45,101 nucleotides of DNA. Source: Campylobacteraceae bacterium. Lineage in GTDB: Bacteria > Campylobacterota > Campylobacteria > Campylobacterales > Sulfurospirillaceae. Where the stretch lies: assembly GCA_027050775.1 (NCBI GenBank), contig JALUBH010000047.1, forward strand, positions 1-45,101. The letters are read 5' to 3'. Position 1 is the first letter of the stretch; each line of letters opens with the position of its first letter. Both the position numbers and the translations under genes were made by a program. The notes beneath the pieces are model-generated. The model was not told the DNA's origin. It did no database searches and saw nothing but the letters and a program-made list of their open reading frames with translations. This document shows positions 35,685 through 45,061 of this stretch, piece after piece.

Positions 35685-36185
35685 CTACCAAACTACACTT
35701 GGAACTGATTCTGGAGCATGAGTTGGTAACCTATATTTTATATAGCCATGACCTGTACCCGCATGACAACCGTTACATCCTTCTATAGCAGCTGCATATC
35801 TAGCTGAAAAAGCATTCCAATCTTTAGCTTTTATGGCTGCTTGTATTGGGTCTAGATAAGCATGTTCAAATGCTTTAAGCTCTTCGGCATGGCCAGGTCT
35901 TGTAGCCTCACCAACTTCCTGGATTTCAGTTTGCTCTTTGATTTCATAGCCAGCTAAACCCCAGTTTCCAGCTTTTGCAGCATAGTATGCTACATAAAAT
36001 CTATGACCATACTCAATCATAACCGTTCCAAGACCCGGTGTGATATCAGCTATTTGACCTAGCGTCATGTGTTTATTGTGCTTTGTAGGCACTACTTGAT
36101 CATTCATATTTTTTGCATTTGTACCAACACCTGCAAATGGCAAACACACCAAGAAGCCAGATTTTACTAGCAAAAAAATACTCAC
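35685..36185 (-). CDS. monohaem c-type cytochrome with unclear start
   Basis: The C-terminal part has one haem motif, CNGCHAGTGHGYIKYRLP, and a helical preceding part (YGHRFYVAYYAAKAGNWGLAGYE...HAYLDPIQAAIKAKDWNAFSARYAAAIEG) in the style of four-helix cytochromes. A periplasmic redox protein is expected. The start is doubtful. The frame is open to 36248 (a TTG). A GTG at 36185 gives a poor signal peptide (SIFLLVKSGFLVCLPFAGVGTNA) and no proper ribosome site. The same DNA, read in another frame, encodes the start of a sensor-kinase-like protein. See findings. Confidence 0.65.
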   Translation of the reverse strand: MSIFLLVKSGFLVCLPFAGVGTNAKNMNDQVVPTKHNKHMTLGQIADITPGLGTVMIEYGHRFYVAYYAAKAGNWGLAGYEIKEQTEIQEVGEATRPGHAEELKAFEHAYLDPIQAAIKAKDWNAFSARYAAAIEGCNGCHAGTGHGYIKYRLPTHAPESVPSVVW

Positions 36186-36288
36186 TCTCTTTTGGTCTTG
36201 AAAAGAGTACTGAAACGCCAAGCGTAAAAAAAGACAATCCATAGACAAACAGAAGCAGTTCCATGCTCTCTTGCTCTAAAGTAAACAT
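36100..36288 (-). pseudogene. 5' fragment of a membrane sensor-like gene running into the cytochrome
   Basis: A 62-codon frame that begins with a strong ribosome site (AAAGGA) and an ATG directly after the stop codon of the upstream gene. It reads MELLLFVYGLSFFTLGVSV from residue 9, then RPKESEYFFASKIWLLGVFAI. This resembles the N-terminal membrane part of sensor kinases and diguanylate cyclases of the phylum, where WLLxxFGI is followed by HGxxEW. Here the resemblance stops after GVFAI and the frame ends within the cytochrome sequence. The likeliest reading is a deletion remnant. The resemblance is from memory. Confidence 0.5.
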
Positions 36289-37517: not shown

Positions 37518-37536
37518 ATTGATATAATATATCAAT
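37518..37536 (+). promoter_or_regulatory. -10 element within a dyad, promoter of the signalling operon
   Basis: TATAAT (37523-37528) lies inside ATTGATAT (37518-37525) and ATATCAAT (37529-37536), arms that match perfectly around three bases. The start codon is 33 bases further. The dyad could bind a regulator that blocks the promoter. Confidence 0.5.
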
Positions 37537-37568
37537 CTTGTTGACTAACCATATTTTTTGGAGTTATC

Positions 37569-39083
37569 ATGGAAAGTAAAAACAACTATAAAAAACTTGC
37601 CAAACTTGCGAAAGATTTTACTCTTTTATATATCGAAGACAACTCCGGTCTCCAAAAACAGGCAAGTAAAATATTTAAGAAATTTTTCCCAAAAGTTATC
37701 GTTGCCACAAACGGACAAGAGGGCTTGGAGTTTTTCAAGAAATATTATCCCGATATCATTATATCCGATATAAAGATGCCCAAGATGAATGGCTTGGATA
37801 TGGCAAGAAAGATAAAAGAGATAGACAATGATGCTCAAATCATCATAACTTCGGCTTTTGATGAAAAAGAGTACCTTCTAGAGTCCATAGATATAGGCAT
37901 AACAAAATACCTTAAAAAACCCATACCGCTAGAAGAACTCATCGAGATACTTTTGGATGTGATAAGTCAGCAAAACGATAAGAAAAACAGAAGATTGTTT
38001 GATGCGTACACTAAAGATGCTTTTGAATACCAAGATCACATGCTGATATTTATAGAAAAGGACGAAGTTTTGATGGTAAACAAGAAATGCCTGGAATTTT
38101 TTGCTCAAGAAAACAGTAAAACTTTCAAAGAGCTTTTCAAAACTTTTTCAAAACTTTTGCTTCCTCATGAAAATTTTTTATATGAAAAAGATACCCAAAG
38201 TTGGCTTGAAATCATCAAAGAACAAGACGGTAAATTGTTTAATGTAAAGCTTAAAGACACCAAAAACAAAAACAGACATTTTGTTTTAAAAGCCAATAAG
38301 ATTCCAGACAAAGATAACTACTATATCCTCTCTTTTGATGATATTAGTGAACTAGGGCTTTTAGAAGAGGATAACCCAAATCTAACTGATGAACAAAAAG
38401 CACAAGAAGAGAAGATAAAGATGATCAACCTTCTTCATGTATTAAAAAGAAACAAAACCAAGATCAAGCTCTACAATTCATATAAGGGCTTGTCCATATC
38501 AAATACAGGTATTATCGAAGAGGTGCTTTCAAATCAAATCAAGATAAAAACAACATATCTCCAGCAAAGAGCTATCCATATAGATAAAAAAACCACCATA
38601 GAATCTGAACTTTTTTCAAAGGCCCTAGAGTGTAGTTTGGTGAATCTAAACTTTGAGACACAAAGTGTTGTTCTAAATAACTTTTCATTTACGCCATTTC
38701 TTCCTTCCAAACAAAAGTATGTGCGAGTTATGCCCGAATCAAGCAGTTTTGTAGATATATATTTTGATGCGATAAGACTATCTGTCAAGATACACATTTT
38801 AGATATCAGCATAGAAGGATCTAAACTCTCTTTTAACTCTTTGCCTGCAGGATTAAAAGAAAACAGTGAGTTGATTTTAAAATTAAGACTAGGCTCAAAA
38901 ACATCACCGCTTAATATGGATGTAAAAGCAGAGGTGTTAAAGATTGAGGAGCATAAAGATGAGTTTATAGTGATAGTTGTATTTAAGTTAGAATCAGAAT
39001 CAAAAAAATTGCTCATAGATTATATAGCCAAAAGACAGATGGCTTTGATACGAGAGTTCAAAGGATTGCAAAATGCAGAATGA
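37569..39083 (+). CDS. response regulator with REC, PAS-like and PilZ domains
   Basis: A 504-residue cytoplasmic protein. The REC domain (about 15-133) has acidic E23-D24, phosphoacceptor D67 in IISDIKMP, and K117. A PAS-like domain follows (about 152-262). The C-terminal part (about 290-500) ends in a PilZ-like domain with YVRVMPES (R386) and DISIEGSKL (412-420), the DxSxxG motif; the second arginine of RxxxR is missing. It may read both phosphorylation and c-di-GMP. First gene of the operon, GGAG before the ATG, 11-base overlap with the next gene. Confidence 0.82.
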   Translation: MESKNNYKKLAKLAKDFTLLYIEDNSGLQKQASKIFKKFFPKVIVATNGQEGLEFFKKYYPDIIISDIKMPKMNGLDMARKIKEIDNDAQIIITSAFDEKEYLLESIDIGITKYLKKPIPLEELIEILLDVISQQNDKKNRRLFDAYTKDAFEYQDHMLIFIEKDEVLMVNKKCLEFFAQENSKTFKELFKTFSKLLLPHENFLYEKDTQSWLEIIKEQDGKLFNVKLKDTKNKNRHFVLKANKIPDKDNYYILSFDDISELGLLEEDNPNLTDEQKAQEEKIKMINLLHVLKRNKTKIKLYNSYKGLSISNTGIIEEVLSNQIKIKTTYLQQRAIHIDKKTTIESELFSKALECSLVNLNFETQSVVLNNFSFTPFLPSKQKYVRVMPESSSFVDIYFDAIRLSVKIHILDISIEGSKLSFNSLPAGLKENSELILKLRLGSKTSPLNMDVKAEVLKIEEHKDEFIVIVVFKLESESKKLLIDYIAKRQMALIREFKGLQNAE

Positions 39084-39828
39084 AAAGGTTATCTACGATG
39101 ATGGCGATCATAAGTGTATCGTATTTAGTTTTGACAATGAAGAGGTAGAAGAGAGTTTCTTGGCGGTAAATCAATATCTAATTATCCAAAAAAACTCGGC
39201 AATTTTGATAGACCCCGGAAGCCAATCTACATATGATGAGGTTTATGATGCAGTCTGTAGATATATAGATATAGATAATCTAAAGTATATATTTTACTCA
39301 CACCAAGACCCGGATGTTGCGGGATCTATCGGTAAGTGGTCGGTCAGTTGTGCGGCACAGCAGATAGTCTCTAAACAGTGGATTAGATTTATGAGTCACT
39401 ATGGATTGATGAACTTTAACAGGGTTATTCCACTCGAAGACAAGGGTGCAAAGATACACTTTGGAGAAGATTATCTGCATTTTATCCCTGCACATTTTTT
39501 GCATAGCCCGGGTAATTTTTCGTTATATGACAGCCGCTCAAAGATACTTTTTAGTGGGGATATTGGAACTAGCATCACGAGTTATTACGGTGCAAAGTCA
39601 CAAGATGTAACTTTTGGTGAGATAAGGGAATCTTTAGAGGGTTTTCATAAAAGATATATGGCGGGAAATAGATTTTGCAAAGTCTGGGTTCAAAAAGTAA
39701 AAGAGCATGATGTACACACTATGGCACCCCAACACGGCTCTTTGCTTAGCGGTGAAGAGTATGACAATTTTCTTGCTTGGTTTAAAGACTTAGAGTGTGG
39801 AGGAGATTTGATGGAAAGTATATATTGA
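39073..39828 (+). CDS. ODP-like di-iron protein with metallo-beta-lactamase fold
   Basis: A 251-residue protein resembling the diiron domain of flavodiiron proteins but with no flavodoxin or rubredoxin part. Ligand positions are H77-x-D79-x-D81 (SHQDPDVAGS), H144 (HFLHSPGN), D163 (LFSGDIGTS) and H221 (PQHGSLL). This pattern matches the oxygen-binding di-iron protein (ODP) that serves as an oxygen/iron sensor for chemotaxis in Treponema. The neighbours here are signalling genes, which supports a sensor role over an NO or O2 reductase. Overlaps the REC-PilZ gene by 11 bases and the next gene by one. Confidence 0.8.
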   Translation: MQNEKVIYDDGDHKCIVFSFDNEEVEESFLAVNQYLIIQKNSAILIDPGSQSTYDEVYDAVCRYIDIDNLKYIFYSHQDPDVAGSIGKWSVSCAAQQIVSKQWIRFMSHYGLMNFNRVIPLEDKGAKIHFGEDYLHFIPAHFLHSPGNFSLYDSRSKILFSGDIGTSITSYYGAKSQDVTFGEIRESLEGFHKRYMAGNRFCKVWVQKVKEHDVHTMAPQHGSLLSGEEYDNFLAWFKDLECGGDLMESIY

Positions 39829-40685
39829 TGAAAAAGTCTAAGATATTTTATGTTTTTATTCTATTTTTGTCATTATTTCTTTTTTTGGGTTGTGAAAAAA
39901 AGATAGAAAAACCACTGGTTCTTAGTGCAAATGTTTGGATAGGATATGCACCGCTGTACTATGCTTATGAAAAAGGCTGGCTAAGGCAAAACGATATAAA
40001 ATTTGTTGCAACTATATCCTTAGGCGAGACTCTAAAATACTATAAAAAAGGCTCTATTGATGTATTTGCGGGAACACAGTATGAGTATATAAAAGCAAAA
40101 AATAGTGTTAAGGATTTGACTGCTATCAAGCTTTTGGATATTTCTAAAAGTGGAGATTTGATTTATGCCAACAAAGGTATAGATGAACTGAGAAAAGCTG
40201 ATAAGATAGATGTGTTTTTGGAAACCAATAGTATAAATTCACTACTTTTGAAAAAATTTACCAAAAGATATGGATTAAAAAAAGAGCAATTAAACTTGAT
40301 GAACGAAAGAGCTGATGCAACTTTGAATCTCAAAATGAGGGGAAATCCTACTTTGATAGTGACATATAAACCTTATGATATGCATATGGAAAAAGAGGGA
40401 TATAAAAAAATAGCAACTGCAAAAAGTTTGGGTTTTACAATTTTTGATGCACTTTTCAGCTCAAAACGATATATCCAAAAACATCAAAAAGAGCTGAAAA
40501 AGCTAGTTGTGCTTTTCCAAAGAGCCTTGGGCGAACTTAAAAAAGACCCACATGGTTTTTATATCGTTATAAAGCCGGACTTTTACTATAAAAAGTATGA
40601 TGATTTTAAAGAAGATTTAAAATCAATCTCATGGACAAGTAGTAAAAGTTTAAAATATCTTCTAAATCAAAGCGGAACAAGATGA
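39828..40685 (+). CDS. NMT1/THI5-like substrate-binding lipoprotein
   Basis: A 285-residue lipoprotein. The signal peptide ends in the lipobox FLFLGC, with lipidated C22. The mature domain is an ABC-type solute-binding fold (VLSANVWIGYAPLYYAYEKGWL...) of the NMT1/THI5 or nitrate/taurine-binding kind. No permease or ATPase genes follow; a sensor kinase does, so it may pass ligand information to the kinase. The start at 39828 (MKKSKIF) overlaps the previous stop codon; the open frame upstream to 39795 is unlikely. Confidence 0.82.
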   Translation: MKKSKIFYVFILFLSLFLFLGCEKKIEKPLVLSANVWIGYAPLYYAYEKGWLRQNDIKFVATISLGETLKYYKKGSIDVFAGTQYEYIKAKNSVKDLTAIKLLDISKSGDLIYANKGIDELRKADKIDVFLETNSINSLLLKKFTKRYGLKKEQLNLMNERADATLNLKMRGNPTLIVTYKPYDMHMEKEGYKKIATAKSLGFTIFDALFSSKRYIQKHQKELKKLVVLFQRALGELKKDPHGFYIVIKPDFYYKKYDDFKEDLKSISWTSSKSLKYLLNQSGTR

Positions 40686-42703
40686 AATTAAGATATAAAA
40701 TAACACTTATAGTCACAGCTTTTTCTCTTTTTGTTATGTTTGTTATGATAGTTTTATATGCAAACTATCTGCTTGAAGATAGATTTGAACAAACAAGAGA
40801 AAGACTTCTTTATGAGAGTGATAATTTGGCAGGACATATACAGAGTGATCTTCTTAGCGCTTTAAGTGTGGTAAAAACGATGCAAAGCGCGGGTAAGGTA
40901 CAAAAAGTACTCTTGGAAAGTAATGCAAAGTATGAAAAACTCTCAAAAGGCATGGTCAAAAAAAAGCTATCTAAATTAAACAAAATTTGGATGAATACTT
41001 ATAGCGCGAAAAGCCCGTTCATCTTGCAATATACTGACAATAAGTTAGCAAAATACCTCAAGGAGCAAAAAAGAGTGCTTCCCGGAGCATATGGCGAGAT
41101 ATTTGTAACTAACAAATTTGGTGCTTTAGTAGCAGCGACAGAGAAGCTTACCACTTTTGAACATGATTTTAAGTATTGGTGGAAAGAGGGTTATGATCAT
41201 GGGCATGGAAAAGTATTTTTTGACGACAGGGGCTATGACGATAGTGTTGGAGGCTATGTTATAGGTATCGTTTCGCCCATCAAAAAAGATGGTCAAATTA
41301 TCGGAATTATAAAGGCAAATATCAATGTGCAGCCGTTGTTAAGCAAAGCACTGAGAAAGTACAACAAACTTAGTGAAACTCAAGCAAAAGTAGTAAGATC
41401 GAAAGGCTTGATTGTATATGAAAAAGGTTTTCCACCACTTAGTACAAGAGTTTCGCCAAAGCTTACTAAGCGATTAGAAGAGCTAAAAGACGGTGTAACG
41501 GATATGAAGATATTTGATAAAGAGAAGATAGTAGCGTATGCGCCTGTAATGCTTTCTTTGAATGATAAAAATATTGTCTTTGGCGGCAAAAAAAGAAGCA
41601 TAGATCATCTCTTGGGAAATGATGGCGAGATATGGAATGTAGTTATCGAAAAAGATAAAGATGCCATCTTCAACAAAGTCTTACCGCGCATAAATAATCT
41701 TTTGCTTATAGGTTTGTTTTTTATAATTTTGCTTGCAATTGTGTTGTTTATCATTGTGGACAGAGTAAGCTCTCCTCTAAGCAGACTCTCAGAGGTAGTC
41801 AAAAAAATAGGCCGCGGAGAGAGGGATATAAAGATAGAACAAGAATCAAATGATGAAGTGGGTGAATTGGCAAAATCATTTAAAGATATGTTCGAGAATT
41901 TGAAAAAAACAACTGCATCACGAGACGAGTTGGAAAAAGAGGTTGAAAAAAGAGTTGAGGCACAAAAGAAGCTTAAGGAGAGAGATGAGATGCTTATAGC
42001 TCAGTCGAAACAGGCGGCCATGGGTGAGATGATCGGCATGATAGCGCATCAATGGAGACAGCCTATAAGTATCATTTCTATGACTATAAACAACATAATG
42101 GTAGATATGGAGTTAGATGAATTAAAAGAGGAAAGCGTAAGAGAGTGCTCATCTGAGATACTAAATGAAACAAGATATTTATCGCAAACCATAGATGATT
42201 TTAGAAATTTTTTCAAGCCAAACAAAGAAAAAGAGGTGGTTTTGGTACAGGAGTTGTATGATGATGTCTATAAATTGATTGGAAAATCTCTCGAAAATAA
42301 CAACATAGAGTTAAGCTTTTTAGGAGATACAAATCTTAAAGTCAAGACATATGGCAGGGAACTGCTTCAAGTTTTTATAAATATCTTAAACAATTCAAAA
42401 GATGCACTCATAGAGAGTTCTAAGGATGAGAAGAAAATATCTATTTTAACATGTAAGGAAAAAAAGAGTATAGTTTTTGAGTTATGTGACAATGCAGGAG
42501 GAGTCAAAAAAGCGATTATAAGTAAGATTTTTGATCCATACTTTAGCACAAAAGATGAAAAAAATGGAACAGGTCTTGGCTTATATATGAGTAAAACGAT
42601 AGTGGAAAAACATTTACTAGGCGATATATGGGTAGAAAATAGAGACAACGGGGCATGTTTTGTGGTAAAAATACCGATAAATTTAGGAAAAAATGATGGC
42701 TAA
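40682..42703 (+). CDS. membrane histidine kinase with Cache-type sensor domain
   Basis: A 673-residue kinase. Transmembrane helix one is about residues 7-28, a periplasmic dCache-like domain about 30-335 (GEIFVTNKFGALVAAT...WWKEGYDHGHGKVFF...YVIGIVSPI), helix two about 338-359, HAMP 360-412, coiled coil to 445. The H-box AHQWRQP holds H456, the N-box NILNNSKDAL about 567-576, then DNAGG, FDPYFSTK and GTGLGL (629-634). It overlaps the lipoprotein gene by four and the regulator gene by eleven bases, so ligand protein, kinase and response regulator form one unit. Confidence 0.92.
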   Translation: MKLRYKITLIVTAFSLFVMFVMIVLYANYLLEDRFEQTRERLLYESDNLAGHIQSDLLSALSVVKTMQSAGKVQKVLLESNAKYEKLSKGMVKKKLSKLNKIWMNTYSAKSPFILQYTDNKLAKYLKEQKRVLPGAYGEIFVTNKFGALVAATEKLTTFEHDFKYWWKEGYDHGHGKVFFDDRGYDDSVGGYVIGIVSPIKKDGQIIGIIKANINVQPLLSKALRKYNKLSETQAKVVRSKGLIVYEKGFPPLSTRVSPKLTKRLEELKDGVTDMKIFDKEKIVAYAPVMLSLNDKNIVFGGKKRSIDHLLGNDGEIWNVVIEKDKDAIFNKVLPRINNLLLIGLFFIILLAIVLFIIVDRVSSPLSRLSEVVKKIGRGERDIKIEQESNDEVGELAKSFKDMFENLKKTTASRDELEKEVEKRVEAQKKLKERDEMLIAQSKQAAMGEMIGMIAHQWRQPISIISMTINNIMVDMELDELKEESVRECSSEILNETRYLSQTIDDFRNFFKPNKEKEVVLVQELYDDVYKLIGKSLENNNIELSFLGDTNLKVKTYGRELLQVFINILNNSKDALIESSKDEKKISILTCKEKKSIVFELCDNAGGVKKAIISKIFDPYFSTKDEKNGTGLGLYMSKTIVEKHLLGDIWVENRDNGACFVVKIPINLGKNDG

Positions 42704-44198
42704 ATTAAAAGATTTAAAACAGATATGTGAAAACCTTAGTGTTCTATATGTGGAGGATGATGATAGGCTCAGACTCAAAGTATGGTCATATTTGTTAAAA
42801 TTCTTTAAATCCGTTGATATAGCTAAAGATGGACAAGAGGGTCTTGATAGATATAAACAGAGATCATACGACATAGTTTTGACCGATATAGAAATGCCAA
42901 AATTAAATGGTCTCGATATGTCCCAAGAGATAAAGAAGTTAAACAAAAACCAAAAGATTATAATAGTCTCTGCATACTCCCAGAGCGATATTTTTTTAAG
43001 AACCATCAAAATGGGTATAGACGGATATATATTAAAACCTTTTGACTATACTCAAATCAACGAATCACTATATAAAGTGACAAATGCCATAAAAGAGTCA
43101 AGAGAGAACGAAAAATTCAAAAATAGACTTTTAGAGATGGTTGAAGATAAGATAAAAGAGATAAGAAAACTAGAAAAAACAAAAGAAACGAACTATAAAG
43201 ATACACTATATACTCTCGTGGATTTGATTGAGCAAAGAGATGCATATACGGGAGGGCATTCACAAAGAGTCGCAAAATACTGCAAGATGATAGCCGAGCA
43301 GTTAAAATTGAGTAAAAAAGCTATAGAAGATATATATGAGGCAGGTATTTTGCACGATATAGGAAAGATAGCCATACCGGATAGTGTACTTTTAAAACCC
43401 GGAAAACTAAATGATATAGAGTACAGGTTGATAAAAAAACATGTAGATATAGGGTATAATGTACTTGCAAAATCGCCTATGTTTGAAGATGTGGCACAAA
43501 TCATAAAAGAGCACCATGAGAGAGTTGACGGAAGCGGATATCCAAATGGTTCAAAGGGAGATGAGGTAAGTCTCTCGGGCAAGATTATGGCAGTTGCGGA
43601 TTCATTTGATGCGATGACAACAAATAGGATATACAAAGCCAAAAAGGATAAGATTGAAGCTCTAAAAGAGATAGTATCTTTAAGTGGAATCAAGTTTGAC
43701 AAAGATGTTGCAGATGCTGCTTTTATCGCACTACAAGATGTAAAGATAGAGCAAAATATAAGCCAATTGCCGGTTGAAGAGATGGAAAAAGAGAGGTTTT
43801 CGTATTTTTATAAAGACCAACTTACACACGCATACAACAAAAACTATCTAGATTTGGTGCTCAACCAAAAAAGTATCGTGGAAAAGTTTTGGGTATTAAA
43901 TATCATATTTTTAAAAAATTTCAGTGCTTATAACAAAAAATATGGATGGATAGAAGGAGATATTTTTCTTAAAAAAGTAGCAAAAAATCTGATCGAAGAT
44001 TATCCTGATGCGATGATTTTTAGGATTCAGGGTGATGACTTTGTGGCTCTAAGCTCTGAAAAGATTGATTTTGAGAGCATATATGAGCAGTGTAAAAAAA
44101 GCTTAGTCAATTGTTTGCATATACAAATCGACCTAAAGAGTGAAAATGTGACTTCAATAAAAACGCTAGAAGAATTTTTGGAAAATAATATACACTAA
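42693..44198 (+). CDS. response regulator with REC, HD-GYP and degenerate GGDEF domains
   Basis: A 501-residue protein. REC (about 12-130) has E21-D22-D23, phosphoacceptor D65 in LTDIEMP, S93 and K115. The HD-GYP domain (about 168-350) has GGHS (H189), HDIGK (H221-D222), HHERVDGSGYP (274-284), the features of an active c-di-GMP phosphodiesterase. The last 130 residues look like a GGDEF domain with FRIQGDDF (443-450) in place of GGDEF, so cyclase activity is unlikely. It is the probable partner of the kinase just upstream. The second ATG at 42696 is also possible. Confidence 0.9.
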   Translation: MMAKLKDLKQICENLSVLYVEDDDRLRLKVWSYLLKFFKSVDIAKDGQEGLDRYKQRSYDIVLTDIEMPKLNGLDMSQEIKKLNKNQKIIIVSAYSQSDIFLRTIKMGIDGYILKPFDYTQINESLYKVTNAIKESRENEKFKNRLLEMVEDKIKEIRKLEKTKETNYKDTLYTLVDLIEQRDAYTGGHSQRVAKYCKMIAEQLKLSKKAIEDIYEAGILHDIGKIAIPDSVLLKPGKLNDIEYRLIKKHVDIGYNVLAKSPMFEDVAQIIKEHHERVDGSGYPNGSKGDEVSLSGKIMAVADSFDAMTTNRIYKAKKDKIEALKEIVSLSGIKFDKDVADAAFIALQDVKIEQNISQLPVEEMEKERFSYFYKDQLTHAYNKNYLDLVLNQKSIVEKFWVLNIIFLKNFSAYNKKYGWIEGDIFLKKVAKNLIEDYPDAMIFRIQGDDFVALSSEKIDFESIYEQCKKSLVNCLHIQIDLKSENVTSIKTLEEFLENNIH

Positions 44199-44206
44199 GG
44201 AGAAAA

Positions 44207-45061
44207 ATGAAAACGGTTTTTTTAAATGGAGAGTATCTAAAAGAAGATGAGGCAAAAGTCTCTATATTTGATAGAGGTTTTGTCTTTGGTGACGGTGTTT
44301 ATGAGGTTGTTCCCGTAGTTGAGGGCGTAGTGCTGGATAAAGAGCCGTTTTTAGAAAGGTTTGATAGAAGTTTAAATGAACTAAAGCTCGGTTGGCCGAT
44401 GAGTAGAGATGAATTTTTAGTGATGATAAATGAGCTCATCAAAAGAAACGGCGTAAATGAGGGTGGAGTCTATATGCAAGTGACCAGAGGTGTTGCTCCT
44501 CGTGCTTTTGCCTATCCAAAAGATATAACCCCAACTGTTATGGCATTTAGCTTTGAAAAAGAGATTATCAACTCACCAAAAGCAAAAAGTGGTATAAAAG
44601 TAGTCACAGTTGATGACATCAGATGGAAAAGAAGAGATATCAAATCCATAGCACTCTTAGGACAATGCATGGCAAAGGAACAAGCAGCAAAACAGGGAGC
44701 TTATGAGGGTTGGATGGTAGAAGATGGCTTTGTGACAGAGGGTACTTCTTCGAGCGCTTACATCGTAAAAGACGGCAAAATCATCACCAGACCACTCTCG
44801 AACTCTATACTCTCAGGCATCAGAAGAAAACTCTTGATTCAAATCGCCAAAGATCATGGAGTGGAGTTTGAACTAAGACTCTTTAGCGTAAAAGAAGCAC
44901 TAGAGGCCGATGAGGCATTTCTCTCAAGTGCTACAACATTTGTGCTGCCTATCATCGAGATAGACGGCAAGCATATAGGGGATGGAAAACCAGGCACGGT
45001 CGCTAAGAAAATGAGAGAGATGTATATAGACTCCGCTCTAAAAATCGCAGGGCTAAGATAA
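44207..45061 (+). CDS. dat: D-alanine aminotransferase (class IV aminotransferase)
   Basis: A 284-residue PLP enzyme. The segments DRGFVFGDGVYEVV, VYMQVTRGVAPRAFAYP, and DDIRWKRRDIKSIALLG (with the PLP lysine in DIKS) match the D-amino-acid aminotransferase of Bacillus closely, as does SSATTFVLPIIEIDGK. It would interconvert D-alanine and D-glutamate with their keto acids for the cell wall. AAGGAG precedes the ATG; it begins eight bases after the signalling operon and may be co-transcribed. Branched-chain aminotransferase is less likely. No terminator is evident in the remaining 40 bases. Confidence 0.88.
   Translation: MKTVFLNGEYLKEDEAKVSIFDRGFVFGDGVYEVVPVVEGVVLDKEPFLERFDRSLNELKLGWPMSRDEFLVMINELIKRNGVNEGGVYMQVTRGVAPRAFAYPKDITPTVMAFSFEKEIINSPKAKSGIKVVTVDDIRWKRRDIKSIALLGQCMAKEQAAKQGAYEGWMVEDGFVTEGTSSSAYIVKDGKIITRPLSNSILSGIRRKLLIQIAKDHGVEFELRLFSVKEALEADEAFLSSATTFVLPIIEIDGKHIGDGKPGTVAKKMREMYIDSALKIAGLR

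Follow-up and report, generated by a model that had tools for sequence, protein, structure and literature searches.

An overlapping operon in Campylobacterota that joins an oxygen-binding di-iron protein to two-component and cyclic di-GMP signalling genes

The window analyzed here is a stretch of 45,101 nucleotides from a Campylobacteraceae bacterium (assembly GCA_027050775.1, contig JALUBH010000047.1), the end of which is occupied by six open reading frames (ORFs) at positions 37569–45061, all on the forward strand. The first five encode a REC-PAS-like-PilZN-like-PilZ protein (gene 1; 37569–39083, 504 amino acids), an oxygen-binding di-iron protein (ODP; gene 2; 39073–39828, 251 amino acids), an NMT1-type solute-binding lipoprotein (gene 3; 39828–40685, 285 amino acids), a membrane histidine kinase of dCache-HAMP-HisKA-HATPase architecture (gene 4; 40682–42703, 673 amino acids) and a REC-HD-GYP-GGDEF protein (gene 5; 42693–44198, 501 amino acids). 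Reading the sequence directly showed that these genes overlap in order by 11, 1, 4 and 11 bases, as an earlier note on this DNA had stated. They represent a real operon of known families, and their combination is apparently undescribed in the open literature.

Gene 2 matched PF19583 over its full length (E = 4.9e-68; 229 bits, cut-off 27). The solved ODPs of Treponema denticola and Thermotoga maritima (6qrq, 6qnm) matched it at 8.8e-66 (225 bits) and 2.3e-61 (211 bits), respectively, with the nearest flavodiiron reductase scoring just 28 bits. Alignment demonstrated that the putative metal-ligand motifs HQDPD, H, D and H are all shared with both solved proteins. No flavodoxin domain was present, the 251-residue protein consisting of a metallo-beta-lactamase (MBL) fold with its C-terminus level with those of 6qrq and 6qnm. 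By family, length and ligand motifs gene 2 is a bona fide ODP, and the earlier designation of an ODP-like di-iron protein is upheld.

Across the GTDB species collection 80 ODP loci were recovered, and neighbours were counted at the 69 surveyed loci having a co-directional gene within 150 bp. A signalling neighbour was observed in 56 of these 69, against 11% expected from distant ORFs at the same loci, a comparison uncorrected for kinship. The ODP tree sorts by partner type (chemoreceptor, GGDEF-EAL, HD or REC-PilZ), requiring 4 changes compared with 31.9 in shuffles, and fusions of ODP to GGDEF and to histidine kinase domains exist in the same order, with the GGDEF motif mostly intact. Together with the signalling neighbours these fusions support the earlier proposal of a sensor-type ODP. 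That ODPs have varied signalling partners is already known as a general principle: operons with varied signal-transduction genes, and fusions, are reported in the part of PMC7319448 that summarizes Muok et al. 2019, and the novelty of an ODP beside signalling genes is weakened to that extent. In the solved-ODP system the partner is a cytoplasmic chemoreceptor (PMC7666581), whereas the ODP described here belongs to a separate clade and is genetically paired with the REC-PAS-PilZN-PilZ gene. Within this Campylobacterota clade (support 100/100), which includes several families, REC-PilZ directly adjoins the ODP in 11 of 14 members, lies a few genes away in two more (G010, G013) and is missing from the contig only for the G001 ODP. 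Pairwise distances among the ODPs correlate with those among the REC-PilZ proteins (Mantel r = 0.80, p = 0.0001); joint inheritance would produce this, but so would vertical descent by itself.

Two further ODP arrangements were observed. In other Campylobacterales an ODP-like domain is fused to histidine kinases (L014 and L023; 737 or more and 519 amino acids), which is a covalent precedent for ODP-kinase coupling. In Oceanospirillum, Marinospirillum and one Pseudomonadaceae genome, two tandem ODPs are followed by an HD_5-domain protein (L045, L046, L047, L049, L050, L052, L053, L055, L062, L063, L069 and L070); the tandem ODPs split into two separate clades, and the two HD_5 proteins that were read lack the residues typical of HD domains.

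Gene 1 contains a Response_reg domain (E = 5.7e-23) in which the phospho-acceptor Asp is retained. Its PilZ match was marginal (cut-off 22.5 bits; 19.9 bits by hmmscan, 23.2 when the genome was searched) and no PAS domain was matched in Pfam. An AlphaFold2 (AF2) model with a mean pLDDT of 85 displayed PAS-like topology at residues ~155–258 and an additional beta-barrel at ~298–375 ahead of the PilZ barrel, and Foldseek placed this two-barrel half with the c-di-GMP (cyclic di-GMP) receptors MotI/DgrA, MrkH and PA4397 (5vx6, 5kgo, 3kyf). The extra barrel and these matches therefore suggest that the protein is better named REC-PAS-PilZN-PilZ than REC-PAS-PilZ. Its modelled C-terminal half resembles YcgR, MotI and MrkH, from which gene 1 differs by its N-terminal REC and PAS-like domains and by a lost arginine. 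Binding of c-di-GMP by PilZ domains involves the motifs RxxxR and DxSxxG (PMC7288161). At the first of these gene 1 reads QKYVR, with the first Arg replaced by Gln in all eight REC-PilZ members of the genus; the second is present (DISIEG) and kept across the genus with one exception. REC-PilZ proteins from outside the genus depart from the motifs in one of two ways: some retain RxxxR but have Ala or a different residue in place of the second-motif Gly, and others retain the first Arg but not the second. In none of the aligned proteins do both canonical motifs occur together. Because of this pattern and the loss of the first Arg, read-out of c-di-GMP by the gene 1 PilZ domain appears doubtful.

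The kinase encoded by gene 4 showed clear Pfam matches to HAMP, HisKA and HATPase domains, with dCache_1 at 2.5e-8 but under its cut-off, and its H-box (MIAHQWRQP), N-box (NNSKDAL) and G-box (GTGLGL) are intact, consistent with a two-component role. Gene 5 matched HD_5 (4.2e-43) and GGDEF (1.9e-9). The HD-GYP catalytic motif HDIGK...HHE..DGSGYP is intact in the window and in orthologues and the REC domain retains its phospho-acceptor Asp, whilst the GGDEF active site is degenerate (QGDDF in place of GG(D/E)EF) and the domain is, judging by its motif, dead. Domain assignments made for the operon by the earlier note have thus largely stood: the REC-HD-GYP protein with a dead GGDEF domain is as described, and for gene 1 the REC domain, PAS-like topology and PilZ fold were recovered, with the PilZN-like barrel having been missed. 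Elsewhere in the window genome (G000, C46; L160:3624–9463) a 1448-residue CheB-CheR-PAS-histidine kinase is followed by a REC-HD-GYP-GGDEF paralogue in an overlapping gene, and a like layout occurs in G005 and G006.

The gene 3 product matched NMT1 (PF09084) at 1e-5 (26.0 bits against a cut-off of 20.5), as did 14 of 36 aligned members of the family across the order, and the presence of a lipobox (LFLGC) supports its assignment as a lipoprotein. Relatives of gene 3 in other genera, counted together with a second copy in G008, lie upstream of a gene for a membrane GGDEF or GGDEF-EAL protein in 36 of 41 typed cases, usually with a 4-base overlap; EAL domains were confirmed by Pfam in two of these partners and suggested by motif in others. 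This company of c-di-GMP enzymes makes plausible the earlier suggestion that the lipoprotein signals instead of transporting. In the genus, the lipoprotein gene directly precedes the kinase gene in four genomes, a 4-base overlap being read in at least three, and a kinase also lies downstream of one distant relative (G063). The four kinase-partnered orthologues group as a single clade (100/100) within the GGDEF-partnered members (with its sister group 84/89), and since the kinase-partnered clade is the nested one, the most economical reading of the tree is a switch of partner from c-di-GMP enzyme to kinase. A BLASTP comparison of the kinase sensor with those of the family's GGDEF-EAL partners detected no homology. 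The layout of the lipoprotein's relatives in the order resembles NspS-MbaA of Vibrio cholerae and Sinorhizobium meliloti, in which a periplasmic binding protein acts with a c-di-GMP enzyme (PMC9993111). The genus arrangement differs from that system, the protein being NMT1-type rather than a polyamine binder and its partner a histidine kinase proposed to feed a separate HD-GYP protein, not a membrane GGDEF-EAL enzyme. The periplasmic binding protein clan is common in c-di-GMP proteins yet little studied (PMC8846402). The window genome also encodes, at L197:4883–8773 (C45), a 1296-residue NMT1-SBP_bac_3-PAS-GGDEF-EAL protein in which two binding-protein domains are fused to a c-di-GMP enzyme.

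The genus comparison covered ten genomes, most of them in many contigs and several metagenome-assembled. The five-gene order is found in four (G000, G003, G004 and G005), with the ODP unbroken in two; in G003 it is obtained by joining two contigs with an exact 127-base end overlap, and the ODP there is intact. A kinase orthologue (54–69% identity) lies downstream of REC-PilZ in all seven genomes that possess it. G007 encodes REC-PilZ, ODP, a dCache_3-like kinase split between two reading frames, the orthologous kinase and HD-GYP, the second kinase replacing the lipoprotein. G006 encodes REC-PilZ, a dCache_3 kinase and the orthologous kinase, and no close ODP was found there; G001 has REC-PilZ, the orthologous kinase and the transaminase, with a more distant ODP elsewhere. 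At neither of these two loci is an ODP or lipoprotein gene present. The G008 contig stops after the ODP, and its REC-HD-GYP and transaminase genes are on a different contig. In G009 a distant REC-PilZ is all that is present, and G002 contains none of the close orthologues of the operon. Both gene trees place G007 as the sister of G000 (93/98 and 86/89), which leaves two histories for the lipoprotein gene: a loss in G007 or repeated gain. The earlier note's conception of five genes as one fixed set is not borne out by these data: neighbours vary among relatives, which goes part of the way to what that note had said would count against it, although REC-PilZ proved a constant neighbour of the ODP. 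From gene content, the core of the system appears to be REC-PilZ with one or more kinases and often REC-HD-GYP, with ODP and lipoprotein as exchangeable inputs, an arrangement favoured over a fixed five-part machine because close relatives vary.

Overlapping co-directional genes, conserved ODP/REC-PilZ adjacency, signalling neighbours and intact catalytic and phospho-acceptor motifs together suggest, at about even odds in our estimation, that the five genes form a co-transcribed multi-input two-component/c-di-GMP module with exchangeable inputs in this Sulfurimonas-like Campylobacterales bacterium. In such a module the lipoprotein would capture a small periplasmic solute for delivery to the dCache sensor domain of the kinase. 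The kinase would then phosphorylate the REC domain of gene 5, the HD-GYP domain of which, with its intact motifs, would hydrolyze c-di-GMP, and may phosphorylate the REC domain of the REC-PAS-PilZN-PilZ protein also. Conserved adjacency and matching divergence point to this latter protein, rather than to the kinase directly, as the one that the ODP, with its di-iron site oxygenated, oxidized or empty, would bind and tune. Gene 1 would influence motility or attachment by contacting other proteins, in the manner of YcgR and MotI, and, as the PilZ Arg is lost, this output may be gated by phosphate and ODP and not by canonical c-di-GMP binding. A di-iron O2/redox site is likewise tied to c-di-GMP turnover in Bhr-HD-GYP (Ferrovum) and VcBhr-DGC, which are covalent fusions of hemerythrin domains to the c-di-GMP enzymes that they control (PMC8846402), whereas the stand-alone MBL-fold ODP described here is linked only genetically. 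More tentatively, the Campylobacterota ODP clade may have exchanged chemoreceptors for a REC-PAS-PilZN-PilZ partner, the PilZ domain of which no longer reads c-di-GMP in the usual way and the output of which is set by phosphorylation and ODP state, with a binding-protein-fed kinase of the same operon driving c-di-GMP breakdown and the binding protein itself having passed from direct control of a GGDEF-EAL enzyme to control of a kinase.

Several observations weigh against the module interpretation. The G005 ODP gene has one in-frame TAA and that of G004 is cut to 85 amino acids by an in-frame internal deletion; contig breaks and in-frame stops in the genus set may be assembly faults. The kinase is kept without the lipoprotein in G007, G001 and G006, and the putative link between the two that was proposed earlier, read from gene order, is weakened accordingly. 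A profile search returned no credible PDB match for the lipoprotein family, so no ligand is proposed, and an AF2 lipoprotein model built on two sequences (pLDDT 42) was not used. Neither the Mantel test nor the neighbour test carries a correction for shared ancestry, and in G006, G009, G012, G017, G029, G037 and G041 a REC-PilZ homologue is present with no close ODP.

Part of this evidence fits an operon of convenience, in which cotranscribed genes serve separate pathways, ODP and REC-PilZ forming one unit and lipoprotein, kinase and HD-GYP another, with the lipoprotein perhaps not serving as a sensor partner. We consider this rather unlikely. ODP and REC-PilZ do pair up in other families where neither lipoprotein nor HD-GYP accompanies them (G139, G127, L034) and the lipoprotein varies independently of the kinase, but the position of the lipoprotein gene directly before that of the kinase in four genomes argues for a connection, and REC-PilZ recurs beside the kinase and/or REC-HD-GYP-GGDEF without an ODP, adjoining the latter outside the genus too (G037, G041, L037). 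The model of the earlier note, in which ODP and lipoprotein-kinase signals converge on c-di-GMP that HD-GYP lowers and PilZ reads within one conserved dedicated system, is consistent with the operon order, the intact HD-GYP domain, the MotI-, MrkH- and PA4397-like fold and the retained DxSxxG motif; it appears unlikely given the Gln substitution in RxxxR throughout the genus, which weakens the proposed PilZ read-out, and the limited occurrence of the five-gene set. That the ODP is instead an O2/NO-scavenging enzyme fed by a separate reductase is very improbable, distant homology to flavodiiron O2/NO reductases being outweighed by the lack of a flavodoxin/FMN domain, the far closer match to solved sensor ODPs (225 against 28 bits), the signalling character of ODP neighbourhoods and the absence of a rubredoxin or flavin reductase gene among the operon genes.

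Ahead of the operon, a promoter scan identified a -10-like TATAAT (37523–37528, forward strand) that is similarly placed in the upstream regions of orthologous loci L111, L113, L114, L153 and L168. The start given in the earlier note, 37518, falls on a 17-bp palindrome spanning this element, TTGATATAATATATCAA (37519–37535), which was rejected as a candidate operator, being absent from the seven relatives compared and having one exact site genome-wide. Downstream, the sixth ORF (44207–45061, forward strand) begins 8 bases past gene 5 and encodes a D-amino-acid transaminase (NCBIfam NF005209 and TIGR01121, both over cut-off). An orthologue ends the operon in G001, G004 and G008 and not in G005 or G007, and because of this partial occurrence it was set aside from the system as probably a housekeeping passenger. 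On the reverse strand at 35685–36288 an apparent deletion scar was observed, in which a membrane kinase gene breaks off after its first ~50 codons and continues directly as a cytochrome-c-like gene that lacks its start and signal peptide; at the same site the kinase and cytochrome genes are complete in L111, L113, L153 and L168, which also carry a divergent response regulator gene. No close copy of that response regulator was found in the window genome (best 45%), and the deletion may be real or an assembly fault.

If the module interpretation is correct, the ODP family would have a non-chemotaxis output, and oxygen or iron sensing would be linked to c-di-GMP and motility control in Campylobacterota through an ODP/REC-PilZ gene pair that is small and predicted to be soluble. 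The lipoprotein would likewise be a documented case of a binding protein that left a c-di-GMP enzyme for a histidine kinase, a case relevant to how signalling systems exchange their input modules.

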